NCBI RefSeq assembly: GCF_030814655.1
Contig: NZ_JAUSVK010000001.1
Span: forward strand, 5,215,001-5,279,000
Reading direction: 5' to 3'
DNA: 64,000 nucleotides
Source of the DNA: Labrys monachus
GTDB taxonomy: Bacteria > Pseudomonadota > Alphaproteobacteria > Rhizobiales > Labraceae
Every line of letters begins with the position of its first letter. Position 1 is the stretch's first letter. A program made the translations under genes and the position numbers. Under the pieces are notes generated by a model. The model was not told where the DNA came from, made no database searches, and was given only the letters and a program-made list of their open reading frames with translations. Below are positions 2,870 to 61,767 of this stretch, piece by piece.

Positions 2870-3065
2870 GTCGCCGGCACGTCCCGAAATCTGTCTGGAC
2901 ATTCTCCTGCCGTCCCGGCGCGGCGAAGGGGTTCGGTCGTCCGCTCGTTCCTCTCCGGCCTGCAGCCTCGCTGGGGATGACGAGGCCCGGCCGGCTTTCG
3001 CTGTCGCGCAAGCGGGCCGATCTTGTTAGAAGGCCGAGAATTGTTCGTCGATGGACCCCTGACCG

Positions 3066-4181
3066 ATGCCCCATCCCGCCTATGACGCCTTCGATGCCCT
3101 CGCGGAGCGGTCCGGCTATGCGTTGATCGACCCGCCCATCCTGCAGCCGGCCGACCTCTTCCTCGACCTCCTGGGCGAGGACATGCGCCGTCAGGCCTTC
3201 CTGACCACGGATGCGGAAGGACACGAGTTCTGCCTGCGGCCGGACTTCACCATTCCGGTCTCGCTGCACTTCCTGAAGGAAGCCGGGGCCGGCGCCATCG
3301 GCGCCTATGCCTATCGCGGACCGGTGTTCCGGCTGCGCGCCGAAGGCCCCGGCGAATTCCCGCAGGCCGGGTTCGAGAATTACGGCCGGCACGACCTGCC
3401 AGCGGCCGACGCCGAGATGCTGGCGATCGCGCTGGAGGCGGCGGCGGATCTCGGCCTGTCCGCGGCGGAGATCCGCATGGGGGACGCCGGCGTCGTCTCG
3501 GCCATGCTGGACGCGCTCGACCTGCCGCCGGTCTGGCGCCGCCGCTTCGCCAGCGACCTGCAGCATTCCCGCAATCTCGACGAGGACCTCGCCCGCCTCG
3601 GCAGCAGCGCGCCGAAGAACGGGGCGGCCGCCTATGCCGGTTTCCTCGCCGCACTGGAGGGAACCGATCCGGGCTCGGCCCGCGCAGCCGTCGCCGATCT
3701 CCTGTCGATCGCCGGCATCCAGCCGGTCGGCGGGCGCAGCGTCGACGAGATCGCCGACCGCTTCCTCGAACAGGCCGCCCTGTCCTCCGGCATGGGCGTC
3801 GACGCCGACAAGGTCGCGATCACCCGGCGCATCTTCGCGGTCGCGGGCGATCCGGACGGCGCCTCGGCCCAGTTGCGTGCCATCGCCGACGACGCCGGGC
3901 TCGCTCTCGACGGCGTCTTCGATGCCTTCGACCAGCGGACCGGCTTCTTCGCGGCGCGCGACATCGATGTCGGCACCATCCGCTTCGCCACCGCCTTCGG
4001 CCGGCGGCTCGACTATTACACCGGCTTCGTCTTCGAGCTGCACGATCCGGGCCGGCCGGGGGCGCCGCAACTGGTCGGCGGCGGCCGTTACGACCGCCTG
4101 ATGTCGCAGCTCGGATCCGCGGAGCCGATCCCCGCCATCGGCTGCTCGATCTGGATCGACCGCTTCGGTGGAGAACTGTGA
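3066..4181 (+). CDS. hisZ: ATP phosphoribosyltransferase regulatory subunit HisZ
   Basis: The 371-residue protein is a catalytically inactive class II synthetase paralog that partners HisG in the first step of histidine synthesis. It keeps the HisRS-like core: [18 protein letters not shown] is the motif-2-like region, [14 protein letters not shown] corresponds to the RGLEYYTG motif of HisS, and [13 protein letters not shown] is the motif-3 region. No C-terminal anticodon-binding domain is present, and the length matches HisZ rather than HisS. Its stop overlaps the start of hisG by ATGA at 4178, so the two are translationally coupled, as expected for subunits of one complex. Confidence 0.93.
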
Positions 4182-49487: not shown

Positions 49488-52400
49488 TCACCACCTGTAT
49501 CTCAGGCCGGCCGTGCCCGTGATCGTGTAGCTGTCTCCCGCCCCGGAGGAGAGGGCGGTGGCATAATAGGCCTCGCCGTAGAGGCTCCACCTGTCGTTCC
49601 AGGCATAGGTGCCGCCCAGCCCGACTTCGCCCCACAGCCGCTTGTCCTGCTGGGTGAGCGTGTTGCCCGCCACCACCACGGAGGTCCCGTTCAGGAACGC
49701 GTAGGAGAGGTTGACGACACCATAAAGCTGCAGGCGGCCGCCCGGACCGACCACGTTCCGCCAGTTCGTGAGATTCTCCACCCGCACCCCGACCCGGCCC
49801 TTCAGGCTGTCGCCGTCCCCGATGGAAATGCGCGTATCGTTGAGGTCGGTGAAGGGGGAGAAGTCGACATGGGTCCAGGCCAGCTGCGCCTGCGGCACGA
49901 CGGCCCAGCCGGAGCCCATCTCGAAACGCTTGCCGGCTTCGAGGCTGAGCACCGAAGACCAGCCCGAATTGCTGCCGTCCGGCTTGTTGGAGAGGTCCGT
50001 GTCATACCAGGTGAACTGCCCGACCGCGTCGGCGTAGAGACCGTCATTGCCGAGCCACGTCAGGTCCGCGCCGAGACCGTAGCCGGTCGAGTTGATCTTG
50101 CCCTTGGCCCTGGCGGCGCCGGTGACGGGATCATGGCTGATGTCGACTTCGGCGCTCGAGGTGCCGACGGTGGCGTAGGCTCCCATCGTGACCTGGCCGG
50201 CTGCCGTCTCGGCGGCGGTGCCTTCATAGCCCGCCTGCAGGAAGCCGATCGACTGGGTGTAGGAGGAACCGGTCCTGGGATCATGGGCGCCATATTGGCC
50301 GCCCATGCGGCCCCAGGCACCGGCGCCCTGGATCACCGGCCCGCCGGCGGCATAGCGCATCGCCTGATCCGACGACAGGTTCACCGCCACCTGCGGTGCG
50401 CCGCCGGGCCAGACGCGGTTGCCGGCGCGCTGCTGCAGCGTGCCCAGCGTCGCCTCGGCGAAGTTCACCAGCGTGTCGGCATAGGGCCGGATCGTCTGCA
50501 CGGAGGCATTGAGCTTGCCGGTCGAGCGCAGATACCAGTTCTGGTCGTCGGCGTTGGGGGTCAGGCTGCTGTAATAGAGCCCGTAATCATAGATGCCGGC
50601 CCCGACCGCAGCGTTGAGGTAGAAGGCGTCCGACGTCGAGGTGCCCGTCACCTCCACCACTTCGACGCCGTTCGCCGTGGTGAGGCCGCCGAGACCGCCG
50701 GCATTGTTGACCACCAGCCTGGTGGAGCCGGAGGCATCGCCTTCGATCACCAGCACGTCCGAAAGCGAGCCGTCCGTACCGATGACGGTATCCAGCTCGA
50801 CCGTGCCGCCGGTGCCGACGAAGTTGCCGTCGATCGTGGTGGTATCGCCGGCCCGGCCGTCCAGCATGGTGAGGATGCCGGCATTGGTGAACGTGCCGAC
50901 GTCGGAGAAGGTGGTCTGCTGCGCCGCCGACGCATCATCGGCGGCGATGATGGTACCGCCGGCCTCGTTGGTCACGCCGTTGCCGGCGGTCAGGGCGCCG
51001 AATGTGCTGGTGCCGCCGGCCGTATCCCAGATACCGGCATTGTCGACGGTGCTGCCGAGGTCGCCGAGCGCCACCGTGCCGATGAGCCGGCCGGAATTGG
51101 TGATCACGGTGGCACCGCCCGCCGTCTCGATCGCCAGGGCGGAGGAGGAAGCGGAGCTGTTCCGCACGGTGCCGGAATTGTTGATGGCGATGGCCTGGCC
51201 CGCGCTGGACACCGCATCGATGCCGCTGGCGCCGCCCTGCGTCACCCCGGCGGTCGTGATCGTGGTTGCGCCGACGCCCCCATTGAGGGCGTAGATGCCG
51301 ATATTCGTCCCCGTCACCGCCCCTTTCGCCGTGATCGTGATCACGCCGGTGCCTTCGCTCAGCGCGGAGATGCCGATATTGGTGCCGGTGACCGTGCTGG
51401 CCGCGCCGGTCGTGATGATCAGGTCGGCAGCGGAGGCGGCATTCTTGGCCTCGATACCGTCGACGCCGCTCACCGTGCCGTTGACGGTGATCGTCGTCGT
51501 GCCGATGCCCTTGTTGAGGGCGTAGACGCCGATATTCGTCCCCGAAACCACGCCGTTGGCCGTGATCGTGGTCGCGCCGGTGCCGTCATTGAGGGCATAG
51601 ATGCCGATATTCGTGCCGGTGACCGTGCTGGCCGCGCCGGTGGTGATGATCAGGCCGGCGGCGGTGGCGGCATTCTTGGCCTCGATGCCGTCGACGCCGG
51701 AGACCGAGCCGTTGACCGTGATCGTCGTCGTGCCGCTGCCCTGGTTGAGGGCGTAGATGCCGATATTGGTGCCCGTCACCGTCCCGTAGGTCGTGATCGT
51801 GGTCGACCCGGTGCCGTTGTTGACGGCGACAATGCCGTCGACGCCGGATACGGCACTATCGTCGCCCGTCGTGATGATCAGGTCGCTCGCCGTGCTGGAA
51901 TTGGCGGCATAGATGCCATCGGCGCCCGTCCCGGTCACGGTGCCGTTAGCCGTGATCGTCGTCGCACCGGTGCCGTTGTTGACGGCATCGATGCCAAAAT
52001 TCGTGCCCGTCACCGTGCTGGCGGCGCCCGTGGTGATGATCATATCCCCGGCGGTGCCGGAATTGACCGCTTCGATGCCGTCCTTGCCGGTCACCGTCCC
52101 GTTGGCGGTGATCGTCGTCTTCGTGCCGGTGCCGCTATTGAGCGCGTAGATACCGATATTAGTGCCCGCCACCGTGCCGTTGGTCGTGATCGTGGTCACG
52201 CCGGTGCCGTTGTTGACGGCCGCGATACCGTCGACACCCGATACGGTGCTGCCTGCACCGGTCGTGATGATCAGGTCGGTCGCGGTGCTGGAATTGCCGG
52301 CATGGATGCCGTCTGCCCCCGTCCCGGTCACGGCGCCGTAGGCCGTGATCGTCGTCGCACCCGTGCCGTTGTTGAGAGCCAGGATGCCGCCCGTGCCCGA

Positions 52401-53753
52401 CACATCGCTGCTCGCGCCGGTCGTGATGATCAGATCGGTCGCGGTGCTGGAATTGCCGGCATAGATGCCGATGGAGGCCGTCCCCGTCACAATTCCGCCG
52501 GCTGTGACGATCGTCGCGCCGGTGCCCCGGTTGAGGGCATAGATGCCGAAATTCGTGCCCGTCACCGTGCTGGCGGCGCCCGTGGTGATGATCATGTCCC
52601 CCGCGACGCCGGAATTGATCGCTTCGATGCCGTCCTTGCCCGTCACGGTGCCGTTGGCCGTGATCGTCGTCGTCGCGCCGGCGGCGTTGTTGAAGGCATA
52701 AATGCCGATATTCGTGCCCGCCACGGTGCCGTTGGTCGTGATCGTCGTCGCGCCGGTGCCGTTGTTGACGGCCAGGATGCCATCCGTGCCCGACACATCG
52801 CTGCCCGCGTCGGTCGTGATGATCAGATCGGTCGCGGTCGCGGTGTTGCCGGCATAGATGCCGACGGATGTCGTCCCCGTCACGATTCCGCCGGCCGTGA
52901 CGATCGTCGCGCCGGTGCCCTGGTTGAGCGCATAGATGCCCATCGCCGCGCCCGTCACCGTGCTGGCGTCGCCCGTGGTGACCGTCAGTTTGGTGCCGGT
53001 GCTGGCGTTGACGGCTCTGATGCCATAGGCGTTCGTGCCGGTCACGACCCCGTTGGCCGTGATCGTCGTCACGCCGGTGCCGTTGTTGAGGGCGTAGATT
53101 CCGGCATTCGTGCCGGTCACCGTGCCGGCCGCGCCCGTCGTGATGATCAGGTCGCTCGCGGTGGCGCCATTGATCGCCTCGATGCCGTACGCGCCCTGGC
53201 CCGTCACATTCCCGTTCGCGGTGATCGTCGTCGCGCCGGTGCCGTCGTTGAGGGCATAGATGCCGATATTCGTGCCCGCTATCGGACCGTCCGCGCCGGT
53301 GGTGATGATCAGGTCGGTCGCGGTGCTGTCGTTGACGGCGTGGATGCCGTCCCCATCCATCCCCGTCACGGCCCCGCTCACCGTGATCGCGGCCGCGCCG
53401 GTCGTCTTGTTGAAGGCATCGATGCCGTCGACGCCGCCCTTGATCACCGAATTGTAGTTGTCGGTGAAGGAGAGCGACGCTCCGCTCGCATTGATCGTGA
53501 TGGCGGTCGCGGCGGTGGAGCTCGAATCGATGCCGAAACCGGCGACGGTGGAGGCCCCGAAGATCGGGCTGACGAAATCGAGGGTGAGAGGCGTGTCGGA
53601 ACCGGCAGGGGTGGCGGCCGCTCCCGAACACAGATAGCTCCCTCCGGCCGCCGTGCAGCTTCCGGCGACGGCCCGGCCATAGCCCGTCAACAGGGCGCCC
53701 GCCATGGCGGTACCCAGGATCAGGCGGTGGCGCAGGGAGTGGGTAACGGCCAT
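49488..53753 (-). CDS. Large repeat-rich autotransporter (type Va)
   Basis: The 1421-residue protein has a signal peptide (SLRHRLILGTAMAGALLTGY, then AVAGSC), a long passenger and a C-terminal autotransporter beta-barrel of about 280 residues that ends GTAGLRYRW, with the aromatic last residue needed for outer-membrane assembly. The barrel starts near GRMGGQYGAHDPRTGSS. The passenger is Thr-, Gly- and Asn-rich, typical of a beta-helix, with eleven large repeats; no protease or lipase motif was found. The two cysteines of the mature N-terminus are in SCTAAGGSYLCS. Adhesion or biofilm function is plausible from the architecture. A TIGR03032-like gene ends 12 bp upstream, so they may be one transcript. 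Confidence 0.87.
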   Translation of the reverse strand: MAVTHSLRHRLILGTAMAGALLTGYGRAVAGSCTAAGGSYLCSGAAATPAGSDTPLTLDFVSPIFGASTVAGFGIDSSSTAATAITINASGASLSFTDNYNSVIKGGVDGIDAFNKTTGAAAITVSGAVTGMDGDGIHAVNDSTATDLIITTGADGPIAGTNIGIYALNDGTGATTITANGNVTGQGAYGIEAINGATASDLIITTGAAGTVTGTNAGIYALNNGTGVTTITANGVVTGTNAYGIRAVNASTGTKLTVTTGDASTVTGAAMGIYALNQGTGATIVTAGGIVTGTTSVGIYAGNTATATDLIITTDAGSDVSGTDGILAVNNGTGATTITTNGTVAGTNIGIYAFNNAAGATTTITANGTVTGKDGIEAINSGVAGDMIITTGAASTVTGTNFGIYALNRGTGATIVTAGGIVTGTASIGIYAGNSSTATDLIITTGASSDVSGTGGILALNNGTGATTITAYGAVTGTGADGIHAGNSSTATDLIITTGAGSTVSGVDGIAAVNNGTGVTTITTNGTVAGTNIGIYALNSGTGTKTTITANGTVTGKDGIEAVNSGTAGDMIITTGAASTVTGTNFGIDAVNNGTGATTITANGTVTGTGADGIYAANSSTASDLIITTGDDSAVSGVDGIVAVNNGTGSTTITTYGTVTGTNIGIYALNQGSGTTTITVNGSVSGVDGIEAKNAATAAGLIITTGAASTVTGTNIGIYALNDGTGATTITANGVVSGTNIGVYALNKGIGTTTITVNGTVSGVDGIEAKNAASAADLIITTGAASTVTGTNIGISALSEGTGVITITAKGAVTGTNIGIYALNGGVGATTITTAGVTQGGASGIDAVSSAGQAIAINNSGTVRNSSASSSALAIETAGGATVITNSGRLIGTVALGDLGSTVDNAGIWDTAGGTSTFGALTAGNGVTNEAGGTIIAADDASAAQQTTFSDVGTFTNAGILTMLDGRAGDTTTIDGNFVGTGGTVELDTVIGTDGSLSDVLVIEGDASGSTRLVVNNAGGLGGLTTANGVEVVEVTGTSTSDAFYLNAAVGAGIYDYGLYYSSLTPNADDQNWYLRSTGKLNASVQTIRPYADTLVNFAEATLGTLQQRAGNRVWPGGAPQVAVNLSSDQAMRYAAGGPVIQGAGAWGRMGGQYGAHDPRTGSSYTQSIGFLQAGYEGTAAETAAGQVTMGAYATVGTSSAEVDISHDPVTGAARAKGKINSTGYGLGADLTWLGNDGLYADAVGQFTWYDTDLSNKPDGSNSGWSSVLSLEAGKRFEMGSGWAVVPQAQLAWTHVDFSPFTDLNDTRISIGDGDSLKGRVGVRVENLTNWRNVVGPGGRLQLYGVVNLSYAFLNGTSVVVAGNTLTQQDKRLWGEVGLGGTYAWNDRWSLYGEAYYATALSSGAGDSYTITGTAGLRYRW
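51203..53310 (-). repeat. Tandem repeat array in the autotransporter passenger
   Basis: Eleven units of about 53-76 residues, each opening with a DLIITTGAxSTVTGTN-like segment, run from about residue 148 to 850. Within each unit, one or two submodules of about 23 residues (GTGATTITANGTVTGTNIGIYALN-like, written here in shorter parts as GTGATTITANG and VTGTNIGIYALN) are repeated. Unit lengths differ because some have one submodule and others two, which points to past unequal recombination. At DNA level, GTGATGATCAG recurs at each unit start on the plus strand. Copies are diverged, not identical. Confidence 0.8.
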
Positions 53754-54884: not shown

Positions 54885-55164
54885 TTCCGGTTCGATCGCT
54901 GGCTGCGGGTTCGTGGGCAATGTCGCACGCTGCTGGGGAGGCACCGGCTGAAGCAGCCGCCGATCGAACCGTCGCATCCGACGACCGGCGGCGGCACAGC
55001 AGAAACGCCCGCCATTCCGATGAGTGAACAGATTAGTGAGGACAAACTCTTGGGAACAAATAGGACAGCGCCGCGATTCACGAAGTGCTTGACGGACGGA
55101 GATAAACAAGCGGAGTCGGGCCTGTCAATCAGCATGGCGCTGGAAAGGCCCTGCCCCGCCAGCC

Positions 55165-55251
55165 ATCTGGCGCCCGCGGCGTTACGCCGGGCGTTTTGCG
55201 TTCCCGGATGCCTTCGTCGTCCTCGCGCGGGCAAGGACAGATCCGGCGTCG
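55165..55251 (+). repeat. Hairpin-containing duplicated block, copy 1
   Basis: The block starts CATCTGGCGCCCG, forms a stem (CGCCCG...CGGGCG, about 55172-55194, with a two-base bulge), continues with TTTTGCG, and then a conserved CCTTCGTCGT and CGCGCGGGCA tail. A second copy is at 57277-57374, where the upper stem is different but pairing is kept. Upstream, AACAAATAG at 55055-55063 resembles the start of the LexA box in copy 2, but here the second half-site is missing. No gene is evident between 54885 and 55340. Confidence 0.5.
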
Positions 55252-55340
55252 TCCCGCGGGAAGACGGTCATGAGTTTCGCCGGGCTGAGGATCTCATCAA
55301 GGAAGAGCCGCCGGATAGTCGAGATCCGCTGCGGTGGCAT

Positions 55341-56833: not shown

Positions 56834-57214
56834 AGTCAGGCCCTCGGGGACCGAAGGCTCGCGAAGCGAAAGCCGTAGCTCGGCAGCAATAATGGGCACC
56901 GCCTGTTCGCTGCATGCCGTAAATTCACGTTAACACACCAGCTGCCCCCCTCCTAAATGATTCAATGGCATCCGGGATCACGCGCGTCGCGCCGAGCGGC
57001 TCCGCCCTCCTTCGCGCCGACCATGACGTCGACGGCGACGCCGTAGGGCGGATCGTCGAAACGGGCGGCACGCTGGCGAGGCTCTCGATGGACCGAGGCG
57101 TCCGGCCGCATGGCGCGAGCGGCTGCCCTCCTCCCTCGCCTTACGGCTGCCGATCGGCCCACGGCTTCGACGCGGTCAATGGCGAATACAGCCGGCCCTC
57201 GCCTCGCCAGTCAA

Positions 57215-57229
57215 GAACAAATAGAGAAC
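57215..57229. promoter_or_regulatory. LexA box (alphaproteobacterial GAAC-N7-GAAC type)
   Basis: GAAC (57215-57218), seven bases (AAATAGA) and GAAC (57226-57229) match the direct-repeat SOS box of Alphaproteobacteria, read GTTC-N7-GTTC on the other strand. A possible -35 TTGACG follows at 57235. The nearest plus-strand gene is the 1172-residue protein at 57471, but two terminator-like hairpins lie in between. The rest of 56834-57214 holds no gene I can support. Confidence 0.6.
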
Positions 57230-57276
57230 AAATCTTGACGTCGTCCCGCAGCCCGTGGGATAAGAAAGCATGACGA

Positions 57277-57374
57277 CATCTGGCGCCCGGAGCTTTGCTT
57301 CGGGCGTTTTGCATTTTCGGACGCCTTCGTCGTCTTCGCGCGGGCATGGCCCGCGCGCCCACAGGTCCGGCGTC
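57277..57374 (+). repeat. Hairpin-containing duplicated block, copy 2 (terminator-like)
   Basis: CATCTGG is followed by a 10-bp stem, CGCCCGGAGC (57284-57293) and GCTTCGGGCG (57297-57306), with a TTT loop and one G-U pair, then TTTTGCATTTT. The shared tail CCTTCGTCGT...CGCGCGGGCA and TCCGGCGTCG matches copy 1 at 55165. The structure looks like a rho-independent terminator for a plus-strand transcript from the LexA-box region, which would then be very short. Confidence 0.55.
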
Positions 57375-57432
57375 GCCCCCTGTCCCGATCCCGATCCGCA
57401 CTGACTGCCCGGCCCGCTCCCGAACCCACCCG

Positions 57433-57460
57433 GCCCGCCCTCACCGGCGGGCTTTTGTTT
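57433..57460 (+). terminator. Rho-independent terminator before the virion-like toxin gene
   Basis: The arms GCCCGCC (57433-57439) and GGCGGGC (57446-57452) with a six-base loop are followed by TTTTGTTT. This is a compact intrinsic terminator ending directly before the ribosome site of the next gene (GGAGC at 57461). Terminators packed between genes in this way are common in phage structural modules. Confidence 0.65.
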
Positions 57461-57470
57461 GGAGCAAGCC

Positions 57471-60400
57471 TTGCCCCGCTTTCCCGATTACGTGGCGCAG
57501 GAGGGCCTTGCCGTGCCCGCCGCGCCGCAGATCCAGGCCTATGACGACGCCGCCAAGGCGCTGCAGCAGCTCGGCCAGACCGTCGGCGACGTCGCCGCCC
57601 GCTGGCTGGCGCGCCAGAAGCAGCAGGCCGATTTCGACGACCAGGTCGCCTTCCAGCGCCACACCCTCGCCCAGGACCAGGCCCTGCAGCAGGCCCGGGC
57701 CGGCATGGCGCCCGAGGCGACCGGCTTCCATGACGCCGTCATGGCCGGCCGCGCCCAGGCGGACGATGCGTTCCTCAAGACCGTCTCGCCCGCCAACCGC
57801 CAGACCTATGCCGGCCTGCTCACCCTCGACCGCGACCGCACCTCCCTCGCCGCCGCCCGCATGGAATTCGAGGGACGCGGCGCCTATGAGCAGGCCGCCT
57901 TCGGCCAGTCGGCCGCCGCCATGGCCGACCAGGTGCGCGTCAGCCCGGGCCTGCTGCCCTCCGCCCTCGGCGTGCTGAAGGCGCAGCAGGCCAACCAGTC
58001 GAGCGTGCCGCCGGCGGTCCGTGCGACGCAGTGGACGGCGACGCAGCAGGCCCTGCAGACCGCCGGCTGGCAGGGCCGCCATGGCGACGATCCCTCCGGC
58101 CGGGGCCTCGCCGAACTCGGGATGACGCTCTCGCCCGAGGACCGGGCCGTCCTGCCGCTCATGATGGACGAAGGGCCGGTTGATCCCAGCGTCGACACCC
58201 TCACCCCGGCGCAGCGCCGGCAGCTCGCCCTCGACTGGCAAACGAACCAGACCCAGAAGCAGGCCGCCGCCCAGGCCGATATCGCCGGGCTGCAGCAGCG
58301 CCTCGCCGACATGCCGCTCGCCGGCACGCTCCAGGGCCCGCCGCCGGACCGAAACACCTTCATCGCCGCCTATGGCCCCGAGGAGGGTACCCGGCGCTTC
58401 GACGAGGCCGATGCCTTCGTCAGCAAGGATGCGCCGGCGATCACCGCGCTGCTGCATCAGCCGGACCGCGCCCAGGACGCCGCGCTTGCCCACTACGCCG
58501 CCACCACCGCCTCTGACGGCCAGCGCTTCCTCGCCAACGCCGCCGCCGCCGTCGCCCGCTACCGGGCCGCGCGCGCCGCCGACCCGGTCGGCACCCTCGG
58601 CAAACTCTATCCCGCCCTCGCCCGAAGCTGGCAGGCCCTCGAAGGCGCCGATCCCGCCACGCTGCGGCAGAACCTGCCCGGCCTCGTCGACCGGACGGCC
58701 GCCCTGATGGACGCCGCCGGCGTGCCGGCAGGCGAGCGGCGCTATCTGCCCCGGGCCATGGCCTCCGCCATCGTCGGGGCCTTCGCCGATACGAGCAGGC
58801 CGATGGCCGAGCGCATCGGCCCGCTGCGCGACACCATCGCGGCGATCCGCGATCCCGCCCGGCAATATGCCCTGTTCCGGCAACTCGTCGATGGCGGCAT
58901 CCCCCGCCTGCTCGAACCGGCCGTCGCCGCCTATGCGCGCGGCGACAATGCCGCCGCCGGCCGGCTGTTCGCGGCCGTCCTGTCCGATCCGGGACAGACC
59001 AGCGCCATCGGTGCCGCCGCACCGGCGAGCCCCGTCGCGCTCGACAACGCCGCCATTCCCCCGGCGCCGCCCCGCCCCGGCGCCGGCACGGACATCGATC
59101 TGTCCGCGTCGGCGGCGAGCCAGATCGCCCACACCGCCGGCATGGCGGGCATCGACCCGTCCCCGATCGCGCAGGCGCTCTTCCCGCGCCTGGTGCGCAA
59201 CAACCTCAAGACCAATGGCGGCGACATCCCCGCCGCCAACGCCCTCGCCGCCGCCGACCTGCGCAAACCCGGCGGCAGCGATGCTCCCATCCGCTACGCC
59301 TACCTGCTGCGCACCGACAAAAGCGGACCGGGCCAATCCGGCATCCTCGTTCCGAAGCCCCAGGCACCGGAGGATGGCGGATCTGCCATCAACAGCGGTG
59401 CCGCAGACACCCAGGCGGCCGGAGCCGCCTCCGCTTCACCGGCGATCCCTGCCGGTAGTCACTCCTATCGGGCGGACATCACCTTCGCAAACCAGGATCC
59501 CTACGGTCCGTCACACTACCTCAACCCCTCATGGATGACCGACCCCGACTATCTCCGGGCGGTATGGGCGGAGGACCAGTCTCTCGACGATATCCAGCAG
59601 GCTTATCGGGATGCGCAGGCGCGGGGCGACAGGGCGGCTCAGCGAAGCTACGCCATGGCCTATGTCGCCAAGGAACATCAGCAAAGTCCCACCTGGATGT
59701 GGTTCGACGACAGGGCTCGTGCCGTGTCTCGCGGCATTCCCATCGTCGGCGGGGCCGCCGACGAGTTTGAAGCCGGACTGAATGCGCCCCTCTCCGCCGT
59801 CATCGGCGACGGCAAGGCCTATGAGGAGGCGCTCGACTATCAGCGCGCCCGCGACAGCTATTTCGACCAGAACTATCCCTGGACCTCCAACGCCCTCCAG
59901 TTCGCCGGCACCGTCGCCGGGACGGCGGCATTTGGCGCGCCATCGTCGCTTGGCGGCAGCGCCGCGATGGGGGTCGCCATCGGCGGAGCGGATGGCTTCA
60001 TGCGCGGCGAAGGCGGCTTCCGGAACCGCATGGAAGCCGCCGCTTGGGGCGCGGCGGTCGGCGGAGTCATGGGCGCCGCAGCCCCCCTCGCCGGCCGGGC
60101 AGCCTCGCGCCTGGGCCGATCATTGGCGGACAAATATCCCGCCATGTTCCGGCAGGCCGGACAGCGGGCCGCTGAGGCCAATACGCCCGTTCCGGCGAAA
60201 GGCAAAGCAGACACACCAAGCCCATCGCCACAGCAATCTGCCGGGCCGCCAGAGAATCCGCAGCCGGAGGCGGCCACTGGCGCCTCCGTTGACAAGAACA
60301 AAACAGGATCATACTATTCCGCTCGTCCCGACTATTCCGGCGCTCTGACGGACGGGTACCGCAAGGCCGGTGACACCACCATTCTTGGCCCGTGGGGCCC

Positions 60401-60989
60401 TTTAGCAAAGGTAGCCCCCCAGGCGAAAATCTACTTCAATCGCTCCCGGACCATGGCATTTTCGTTTGACGAGCAGACAGGCAGCGTGACAAGGATCAAT
60501 ACAAGCCTCAAGCAAAGGCTCGATCAATCTGGGAACAAATCGGGAACATGGATAGCCGGCGAAAGAGGCAATGGTCACTTTCTCTCAAACAATCCCGAGG
60601 CGAGAGCCGCAACGAACAATAAAGGCGTTGAATACGTCGACGGATCGGGCAAATTCGACCCCCACTCCCTTGCTGATGTAGAGCTCGAGAATATGTCGGC
60701 AGATAGGAGAGAAAATTTTAAAAACGGAGACATTTTAGTCTCCAAAAACCCCGCCTTGATAGAAAAGCTGGGCATCCAAGCAGGAAACAAATCCCTCGGT
60801 GTAACGCGAAGGGACGTCGAAATTTGGCGCGAGGATAACGGCTATACATGGCACGAACACCACAATTTACGGACTTTGCAGCTCATTCCCAGCATTATCA
60901 ACAACAACCACCCTCACTTCGGTGGAATCGGTGAAATTAACGCCGCGCGACGGCTTTACAATGAGGAGATAAAACGGTGGGCACAATAG
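57471..60989 (+). CDS. Phage-virion-like protein with C-terminal WHH nuclease domain (candidate polymorphic toxin)
   Basis: The 1172-residue protein has three parts. Residues 1-650 are Ala/Gln-rich and mostly helical, with QKQQADFDDQVAFQRHTLA. Residues about 680-900 include GIPIVGGAADEFEAGLNAP, a RARDSYFDQNYPWTSNALQF segment and a glycine/alanine-rich stretch with MRGEGGF; I have seen such stretches in large phage structural or ejected proteins. A proline-rich linker leads to a C-terminal domain of about 180 residues ending TWHEHHNLRTLQLIP near residue 1126, followed by INNNHPHFGG. That is the WHH-type HNH/Endo VII-like nuclease motif. Base composition becomes AT-richer in the tip. The start is TTG at 57471 with GGAGC upstream. 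It has no signal peptide. Confidence 0.65.
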   Translation: MPRFPDYVAQEGLAVPAAPQIQAYDDAAKALQQLGQTVGDVAARWLARQKQQADFDDQVAFQRHTLAQDQALQQARAGMAPEATGFHDAVMAGRAQADDAFLKTVSPANRQTYAGLLTLDRDRTSLAAARMEFEGRGAYEQAAFGQSAAAMADQVRVSPGLLPSALGVLKAQQANQSSVPPAVRATQWTATQQALQTAGWQGRHGDDPSGRGLAELGMTLSPEDRAVLPLMMDEGPVDPSVDTLTPAQRRQLALDWQTNQTQKQAAAQADIAGLQQRLADMPLAGTLQGPPPDRNTFIAAYGPEEGTRRFDEADAFVSKDAPAITALLHQPDRAQDAALAHYAATTASDGQRFLANAAAAVARYRAARAADPVGTLGKLYPALARSWQALEGADPATLRQNLPGLVDRTAALMDAAGVPAGERRYLPRAMASAIVGAFADTSRPMAERIGPLRDTIAAIRDPARQYALFRQLVDGGIPRLLEPAVAAYARGDNAAAGRLFAAVLSDPGQTSAIGAAAPASPVALDNAAIPPAPPRPGAGTDIDLSASAASQIAHTAGMAGIDPSPIAQALFPRLVRNNLKTNGGDIPAANALAAADLRKPGGSDAPIRYAYLLRTDKSGPGQSGILVPKPQAPEDGGSAINSGAADTQAAGAASASPAIPAGSHSYRADITFANQDPYGPSHYLNPSWMTDPDYLRAVWAEDQSLDDIQQAYRDAQARGDRAAQRSYAMAYVAKEHQQSPTWMWFDDRARAVSRGIPIVGGAADEFEAGLNAPLSAVIGDGKAYEEALDYQRARDSYFDQNYPWTSNALQFAGTVAGTAAFGAPSSLGGSAAMGVAIGGADGFMRGEGGFRNRMEAAAWGAAVGGVMGAAAPLAGRAASRLGRSLADKYPAMFRQAGQRAAEANTPVPAKGKADTPSPSPQQSAGPPENPQPEAATGASVDKNKTGSYYSARPDYSGALTDGYRKAGDTTILGPWGPLAKVAPQAKIYFNRSRTMAFSFDEQTGSVTRINTSLKQRLDQSGNKSGTWIAGERGNGHFLSNNPEARAATNNKGVEYVDGSGKFDPHSLADVELENMSADRRENFKNGDILVSKNPALIEKLGIQAGNKSLGVTRRDVEIWREDNGYTWHEHHNLRTLQLIPSIINNNHPHFGGIGEINAARRLYNEEIKRWAQ

Positions 60990-61450
60990 AAGATCCTGTT
61001 TTTGGAAAATTGTGGTGGGATGGTTTATCCTGGAAACGTGAGTATGATGCGTTTATATTTGGAGAAGACAGAACCGTCATTTTAGTCGTCGACGAAGATT
61101 CCGGTCCCACGGCTGCACAACAGGAGATTTTCGTTAAATTTTATAGGCATAAAGATCAATGCATCAGGGATATCGAAAGATCCATCTACGCATATTATCT
61201 TTCAATTCTAGATGAAAAGAGAGCTGATTTGGGAGACGTCGCCGATGAAGAAATGCCCATTGTGTCGAATATAAACGAGTTGGGCGCTTTAGTTCCACTA
61301 GAGCAGATAGTTATCAAAGATCCGTATTATGGAGACGACAAAATTATCGCCCTTCTATTTGGCTGCACCTGGGATGATAGCCACGGGTTGGGCGTCAAAT
61401 TGACAGATAACAAGGTGACGGACGTAGGTCAGCAAGATATCGTCCTTTGA
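60977..61450 (+). CDS. Candidate immunity protein (DUF6985-like)
   Basis: The 157-residue acidic protein starts at a GTG that overlaps the upstream nuclease gene by 13 nt, with a strong GAGGAG eight bases before it. It begins VFGKLWWDGLSWKREYDAFIFGE and contains EDSGPTAAQQEIFVKFYRH and DIERSIYAYYLSILDEK, a pattern I associate with DUF6985 proteins, which are often found with polymorphic toxins. No catalytic motif is seen. It is clearly AT-richer than the rest of the window and uses A/T-ending codons, a mark of horizontal transfer. Overlap with a nuclease-tipped gene makes an immunity role likely, but this is inference. Confidence 0.6.
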   Translation: MGTIEDPVFGKLWWDGLSWKREYDAFIFGEDRTVILVVDEDSGPTAAQQEIFVKFYRHKDQCIRDIERSIYAYYLSILDEKRADLGDVADEEMPIVSNINELGALVPLEQIVIKDPYYGDDKIIALLFGCTWDDSHGLGVKLTDNKVTDVGQQDIVL

Positions 61451-61490
61451 GGCACGCACCGTACTTGGTCAGCCATCGGCGGCGATTGAG

Positions 61491-61709
61491 TCAGGCGCCG
61501 CCGCAATCTTGTATATCGGCGGCGTGGACGACGGCCTGCATCGGCAAGCCCTGCGTATCGACGAGGTGATGCATTTTCCCACCCCTGATCTTCTTCCCGT
61601 TCTGGCGGTCGATGATCCGACAGCCGGTCTTCTGGTACGACATGGCCCCGCTTCTCCGGCCCGTTGGTCATTTTTGAAGTCACGCCTCCCCTTCGACTTC
61701 GACAATCTG
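61491..61709 (-). pseudogene. IS5-family transposase remnant
   Basis: On the minus strand, pieces of an IS5-type transposase are readable in more than one frame: CQIVEVEG (as in DSQIVK...), then after stops and a frame shift, GKKIRGGKMHHLVDTQGLPM and QAVVHAADIQDCGGA before a stop. This matches the KGRKRHLLVDTxGL...VVHxADIQDRDG region of intact IS5 transposases. Frame breaks and lack of both ends make it inactive. No inverted repeats were found. It lies 41 bp after the immunity-like gene and marks a former insertion at the edge of the accessory locus. Confidence 0.6.
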
Positions 61710-61767
61710 GCACTCCCCTGCAGGTTCGGATGCAGTCGTGCCTCTCTTCCACACAGGAAAGATCGCT

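Follow-up and report, generated by a model that had tools for sequence, protein, structure and literature searches.

A putative polymorphic toxin on an internal-virion-type phage carrier in Labrys monachus

Polymorphic toxins of the Rhs, contact-dependent inhibition (CDI) and LXG types are known for cassette exchange and orphan tip-immunity modules, both of which also occur in the system described here. It was identified in a 64,000-nucleotide stretch of the Labrys monachus genome (contig NZ_JAUSVK010000001.1, positions 5,215,001 to 5,279,000; hereafter the window), where a large protein combines a phage-like body with a C-terminal WHH-type tip and is followed by a putative immunity gene of the DUF6985 family. 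While the tip is of the kind found on Rhs and LXG toxins, the carrier protein differs from theirs. By its anatomy and by comparison with relatives, the assignment of this gene pair to a polymorphic toxin system on an internal-virion-type phage carrier is strongly supported.

The nearest described class is the MuF toxins, which are over-represented in Firmicutes and also occur in Pasteurellaceae and Bacteroides (PMC5576092, PMC12226406 and, for Bxa, PMC11699363). In the accessible text of these papers a virion-associated N-terminus precedes a variable toxin C-terminus, immunity genes adjoin and delivery together with DNA is hypothesised, a plan that the Labrys system shares. In contrast, the Labrys carrier is of the internal virion or ejection type and is present in several copies per locus, and whereas MuF genes in bacterial genomes are described within prophages (PMC5576092), solitary Labrys copies lie away from phage genes. 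An earlier note on this DNA, made from the sequence alone, had offered MuF-linked toxins as an example; this identity was rejected, as the window protein has no MuF match in Pfam and no PHROG match named MuF.

The carrier resembles the T7-type ejection proteins gp14, gp15 and gp16 in gene position, size range and helical body. The T7 ejection proteins leave the particle and form a channel through the envelope, and homologs of gp15 are recognised chiefly from their size and synteny (PMC8954989). Enzymatic domain swaps are described there as well, with a lysozyme on the gp15-like protein of K1E that compares with a PF18013 insert in three Labrys copies, but the accessible text of this review describes neither nuclease or deaminase toxins nor immunity genes and does not contain the word 'toxin'. 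Polyvalent proteins of phages and plasmids are likewise injected multidomain proteins, with RNase, ART and lysozyme domains; the term 'immunity protein' is absent from the available text (PMC5512222), whereas Labrys has one payload cassette with a matched putative antidote. Gene transfer agents share with the Labrys loci a phage origin and evolution with the host genome (PMC9662315), but the Labrys loci carry T7-like structural genes plus toxin cargo. In the open-licence PMC literature no description of a carrier of this kind was found among the matches listed, which does not establish its absence in print. No text pairing 'polymorphic toxin' with 'internal virion protein' was found there, 'ejection protein' paired with 'immunity protein' led to MuF toxins only, DUF6985 was not mentioned, and the literature on Labrys prophages, judged by its listing, held nothing on this system.

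Anatomy of the toxin gene and its partner

The coding features of the locus, in window coordinates, are as follows.

57461..57464, + strand: ribosome site GGAG, read from the sequence
57471..60989, + strand: toxin gene, 1172 amino acids (aa), TTG start, within the open reading frame 57459-60989
57471..58919, + strand: conserved N-terminal body, aa 1-483, internal-virion-protein-like (sequence alignment; phrog_992, phrog_37988)
59703..60185, + strand: Gly-rich hydrophobic stretch, aa 745-905 (phrog_5880 of unknown function, E 5.6e-15)
60438..60986, + strand: toxin tip, aa ~990-1172 (Pfam WHH and Colicin-DNase)
60825..60929, + strand: WHH motif region, aa 1119-1153 (Pfam)
60977..61450, + strand: putative immunity gene, GTG start, 157 aa, DUF6985 (PF22481, E 9e-27, Pfam)

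The TTG start at 57471 is aligned in all six copies of the body that the genome contains. The C-terminus of the protein, which includes TWHEHHNLRTLQLIP...HPHFGG, matches Pfam WHH (PF14414, aa 1119-1153, E 1e-8) and Colicin-DNase (PF12639, aa 1054-1151, E 3.8e-7), both above cut-off. The WHH nuclease motif that the earlier note had read by eye is thereby confirmed as a domain of the HNH superfamily and not of a non-nuclease phage family. In the body of the window protein, PHROG profiles detect the 'head protein' family phrog_992 weakly (aa 174-367, E 4e-5) and phrog_37988, of unknown function, at aa 292-481 (E 2e-6), and the phrog_992 match is strong in the bodies of two relatives (E 2e-14 and 4e-15). 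NCBIfam gave no match for the window proteins. A known defence family was considered and rejected, PADLOC having no match for either the toxin or the partner protein. The G+C content is 72.0% for the body, 48.8% for the tip and 43.0% for the downstream gene, compared with 66.9% for the window.

A structure model of the window protein was computed from a 10-row alignment. In this low-confidence model helices make up most of the body and are confidently predicted at about aa 51-200, in line with the helical body suggested by the earlier note. A fold search of BFVD returned ten matches at E ≤ 1e-3; the named ones belong to phages or a marine virus, and two bear lysozyme or transglycosylase names. 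With the same low-confidence model one further match is called 'Internal virion protein' (E 0.035). The BFVD result supports a phage protein but not a particular T7 protein.

The downstream gene overlaps the toxin gene by 13 nt and its GTG start is preceded by GAGGAG; this small AT-rich gene with a strong ribosome site, noticed earlier, is assigned to DUF6985. All four DUF6985 genes found in the genome lie directly after a WHH tip, and the family has no match in the phage records or viral contigs searched. A likeness of the DUF6985 protein to low-molecular-weight phosphatases (PDB, E 4e-4) covers aa 49-127 only and was treated as spurious, though not proven so. Judged by eye, a remnant resembling an IS5-type transposase (window 61475-61740) adjoins the immunity gene, and copy B has a comparable one next to it. 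Likewise by eye, a ppx/gppA-like gene neighbours DUF6985 in two genomes (L102, L103) of a different genus.

Body copies, cassette exchange and tip-partner pairing

The genome (6.92 Mb, one contig) contains the body six times, and its arrangement is therefore not a chance one.

W: the window copy
B: 3262064
C1: 5651548
C2: 5677684
A1: 2168812
A2: 2174657

By gene lists read by eye, W, B, C1 and C2 are solitary amid host-type genes. Nine neighbours of W were tested against PHROGs and form no virion cluster, which agrees with the view in the earlier note that the gene is carried without other phage genes. A1 and A2 are encoded within a T7-like virion locus of the same genome, with PHROG matches for a large terminase, the major head protein phrog_212 (the only head family searched, present once in the genome), tail tubular-type proteins (phrog_394/376) and internal virion proteins (phrog_418/308). 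Its connector gene, which we also call the portal, is 72% identical to that of Labrys sp. KNU-23, and the ortholog in Labrys sp. WJW is a phrog_332 connector (head-tail adaptor). A1 follows the connector gene. A2 lies after the phrog_418 gene; its frame is open (867 aa), and no toxin tip was recognised in it. Eight genes of the resident locus were compared with KNU-23; all are open and the head protein is 89% identical. Together with the PHROG matches, these virion-locus paralogs support well the proposal of the earlier note that the body is phage-structural and derives from a phage-particle protein. A1, A2, the copies of three other Labrys and 17 viral loci, though not the window gene itself, are encoded among connector, core and tail genes, and partly on this gene position the body may be assigned to the ejection type at the T7 gp15 position.

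Copy B is 98% identical to W across the whole protein. At the nucleotide level the two show no difference over 3309 bp, a stretch that begins 259 bp upstream of the start codon (57212) and reaches codon ~1016.

60520..60521, no strand: end of the 3309-bp W/B identity (cassette junction)

Past this junction the tip is 86% and the partner 76% identical, and beyond the partner the flanks are unrelated. Tip and partner thus behave as a replaceable unit, apparently swapped as one behind a constant body, unless the body was converted up to the junction. Third codon positions hold an excess of the W/B changes (42 of 70 in the tip, 60 of 113 in the partner), indicating that both remain under coding selection. 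The W tip is 89% identical to the B tip and 56% to the tip of C2, which is again WHH (E 6e-12). Downstream in the B locus lies an additional orphan WHH tip with DUF6985, and in C1 the second piece has a Deam_C deaminase at its end (PF24241, E 4e-34), with a DUF6911-like gene after it.

The body is present in all five genomes of the family searched, the window's included, and in at least 6 (single-sequence search) or at least 13 (profile) of 397 genomes of the order, with at most four candidates scored per genome. The copies found in L. okinawensis (three), WJW (three) and KNU-23 (four plus a fragment) all lie within a single virion locus per genome; seven of the ten virion-locus copies of these relatives are in one open frame. 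Their tips are Deam_C, one VanY and others without an assigned family, and some copies have an insert, either a PF18013 lysozyme or an M15 peptidase. When 15 Labrys proteins were compared, setting aside the broken A1 and the initial pieces of G1b and G2b and treating the two pieces of C1 separately, the core matched in 105/105 pairs and the last 110 aa in 24/105, giving seven tip groups.

Partner families follow the tips. In the regions scanned, orphans included, a WHH tip is followed by DUF6985 in 4/4 cases and a deaminase tip by DUF6911 in 9/9, the matching family being next in all 13; because members of this set served to build the profiles, these counts say nothing about remote relatives. 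The G3a tip, of no assigned family, is followed by DUF7945. Three orphan tip-partner cassettes occur, in the B, G002 and G003 loci, and two of their tips are partial. A constant carrier with a variable tip, a specific downstream partner and orphan cassettes qualify this, at the level of sequence, as a polymorphic toxin system, and with the virion-locus paralogs they point to an internal-virion and not a MuF carrier.

A sister family shows the same pattern, which is thus not peculiar to Labrys. Its body comes from G107, a genome of the same order but of a different family, where the surrounding locus encodes a connector, the phrog_247 major head protein, tail proteins and internal virion proteins. 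It matches phrog_37988 over aa 1-745, and the tip therefore lies outside the match. Two of the three G107 copies end in HNH-like tips (by eye, no Pfam match) with overlapping partners, one of them SUKH-1 (PF09346, E 9e-14). With this body 17 viral-contig loci on 15 contigs were found (17 of 26 candidate stretches confirmed), each with at least one of six G107 virion genes nearby. Among 10 of the 18 sister proteins (the query and those of the 17 loci), bodies match in 45/45 pairs and tips in 7/45; left out were L107, which is cut, L113, L114, L116 and L117, whose frames are broken, and L118-L120, which share one C-terminus. Both families thus display the constant body, varying tip and downstream partner that the collection of homologs suggested in the earlier note was to look for. 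The partners of L105 and L111 are Tdi1 (PF08906), an immunity family of the type VI secretion system (T6SS), and L109 has an independent WHH tip (E 3e-8) whose partner overlaps by 13 nt and matches DUF7716 below cut-off. By eye the L112 and L115 tips appear zincin protease-like and RelA/SpoT-like, with no meaningful Pfam match. In L088 (G146 1027548-1036926) repeated paralogous small genes of ~139 aa (MTDKxMFTE...) alternate with virion-type genes and a body fragment. The sister protein has no relatives in the phage records, while a lysozyme-bearing copy of the body matched 363 of them; among the 15 listed, the matches fall within query positions 169-450, around the lysozyme insert.

Relatives' virion loci and the common leader

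In G001 and G003 the virion locus has the same host flanks on both sides, and in WJW (G002), where the contig ends, on one. A search for tyrosine integrases gave 24 PF00589 matches in the three genomes, none on contigs C21 and C112 or within 350 kb of the G003 locus; serine recombinases were not searched for. No replication module was noticed in the gene lists by eye, no systematic search having been made. Ratios of non-synonymous to synonymous substitution rates (dN/dS) are 0.04-0.06 for the head, 0.04-0.05 for the portal and 0.07-0.11 for the terminase, compared with 0.05-0.16 for four host genes, so that purifying selection on the head genes is strong. Against strict vertical descent, dN/dS reaches 0.37 for the scaffold gene and 0.22 for tail tubular B, whose dS is 0.73-0.75 compared with 0.10-0.44 for the host genes. 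Vertical descent of a selected virion locus fits these data better than recurrent lysogeny, with same-site re-entry or recombination as alternatives, and the relatives' locus is perhaps a domesticated particle. The resident locus of the window's genome lies at a different genomic place. There, the YceH-like gene that flanks the relatives' locus is found at 1.726 Mb without a virion locus, and nucleotide synteny is limited to that gene, so that the empty-site comparison gives no date for the insertion.

All four Labrys have what by eye is a glycosyltransferase-like gene close to the tail end of the virion locus; it may perhaps serve a surface modification tied to the particle:

G001: 92622-93506
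G002 (WJW): 2894-3763
G003: near 1997427
G000 (the window's genome): 2157361-2158239

The solitary copies have a common leader.

57212..57470, + strand: leader common to the solitary copies, identical to copy B from 57212
57215..57239, + strand: candidate operator/promoter, GAAC-N7-GAAC (57215-57229) followed by TTGAC, a lead only
57432..57453, + strand: hairpin with a T run, immediately upstream of the ribosome site; both prophage copies are preceded by similar sequence

Over 184 bp (57272-57455) the leader is 96-100% identical before all four solitary copies (40 of 78 candidates scored). The GAAC-N7-GAAC element, read on the opposite strand, is the LexA repeat of alphaproteobacteria that the available text of PMC3323433 names; it precedes TTGAC in W and B, and a one-base variant lies near the same offset in C1 and C2. 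A 25-bp pattern was built from the W site and a site 124 bp before a prophage head operon gene. It is exact, by construction, at W, B and the head operon, and simulated sequence contained none at up to five mismatches; a four-mismatch site precedes the prophage connector operon. This candidate operator could place toxin and head genes under one damage-responsive control. Counting against it, three more sites (3-4 mismatches) lie in apparent dispersed non-coding repeats, and by chance alone the bare motif should occur about once per window (exact GTTC-N7-GTTC: 2 observed, 1.12 expected), for which reasons it is kept as a lead.

Three side observations concern these elements and the surroundings of W. 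The apparent dispersed repeats near G000 1719306, 5641468 and 5641905 carry a promoter-like box of the GAACAAAAC...CTTGACA type, and a partial copy of the leader (76%) lies at window 55164-55255, about 2 kb upstream of the toxin gene. A neighbour of W (49488-53753) encodes a 1421-aa autotransporter-like protein with many short repeats (by eye), which has a PHROG tail-fibre match at aa 950-1079.

Proposed particle delivery, alternatives and meaning

Taken as a whole, the locus is probably best explained as a polymorphic toxin delivered by a phage particle, its body a paralog of an internal virion protein of the ejection type (T7 gp15 position), its tip a WHH domain and its antidote the DUF6985 protein. 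Particle delivery, loading of the solitary toxins in trans, toxicity and immunity are plausible elements of this explanation. We infer that during particle assembly the body would pack the toxin into the core of the capsid, where it would accompany or replace the resident ejection protein, and that toxins of the solitary genes would be delivered in trans by the resident particle. On adsorption the toxin would exit with the other core proteins, the Gly-rich stretch presumably aiding envelope crossing, and the WHH tip (the C-terminal ~180 aa) could then reach the target cytoplasm, attack nucleic acid and harm cells without the matching antidote. The overlapping DUF6985 gene would supply the antidote that protects the producing cell, tip and antidote being exchanged as one cassette.

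Several observations weigh against this explanation. The window body (726 aa) has no match in 50,697 phage records and no significant sequence match to a solved structure (PDB). Its model has a mean predicted local distance difference test (pLDDT) score of 47, a fold search of the PDB with this low-confidence model gave no match, and none of the BFVD top ten has a template modelling (TM) score above 0.30. No toxin was seen within about 1.5 kb of DUF6985 in the two other genomes (of 398) that have it. The solitary C1 is frameshifted near codon 484, the activity of C2 is doubtful because WHEKED replaces the WHEHHN of W, and among the relatives' copies G1b and G2b are each split over two frames and G3b is without its first ~240 aa. 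The resident virion locus may not make particles, as A1 is broken, the terminase shares only 26% identity with the KNU-23 one, and neither a tail fibre nor an endolysin was noticed next to the locus (a genome-wide search was not made), while the WJW locus has both.

A broader proposal, which we put forward tentatively and regard as possible at best, is that Labrys keeps a domesticated podovirus-like particle as a capsid-bearing toxin injector. A fixed, integrase-free locus would encode several ejection proteins whose nuclease or deaminase warheads can be exchanged, together with the matched antidotes. In the window's species the warheads would have moved to four solitary sites with a common leader and would be loaded in trans into the resident particle, perhaps with a damage-responsive operator in common.

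Defects such as those of A1 and C1 would equally be expected if the solitary genes were left over from prophages now lost and persisted as selfish toxin-antidote cassettes that are no longer delivered, as would the missing virion cluster beside W and, by eye, the host-type genes beside the other solitary copies and the IS-like remnants beside W and B. However, one leader and one start site are common to the four solitary copies, the W/B body is open and identical over its 3309 bp despite unrelated flanks, a virion body of ~900 aa would be superfluous for a bare toxin-antidote cassette, and the relatives keep their structural set under selection; we consider this origin unlikely. An anti-phage trap, in which solitary decoy ejection proteins would enter the particles of a related phage during its infection, ruining those particles or poisoning the host infected next, to the benefit of the bacterial population, predicts the same anatomy and a position outside the virion locus, and would explain retention without a working particle of its own. 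It appears improbable given that in three relatives the toxins belong to the virion locus itself and that neither window protein is matched by PADLOC. Export by a bacterial secretion system (T6SS, two-partner or Rhs-type) would suit a tip that is similar to those of plasmid-borne LXG and Rhs toxins and, weakly (E 0.08), to a solved Rhs toxin, but can be set aside as very improbable, since Pfam at E ≤ 1 finds only WHH and Colicin-DNase in the window protein and no secretion-type N-terminal domain, and the body has its paralogs in virion loci.

A polymorphic toxin on an internal-virion-type carrier would add a second class of virion carrier to the polymorphic toxins linked to phages. The T7 relatives of that carrier are known to exit the particle, and this type of carrier makes real delivery of virion-linked polymorphic toxins directly testable. 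The apparent tip exchange between W and B, two loci of one genome, offers a clean natural example of warhead swapping. Headless tailocins are particles that bacteria keep as weapons, and virion loci that stay at one site under selection suggest that short-tailed particles, too, may be kept by bacteria in this role. For Labrys, the system suggests a virus-derived device for poisoning competing bacteria.

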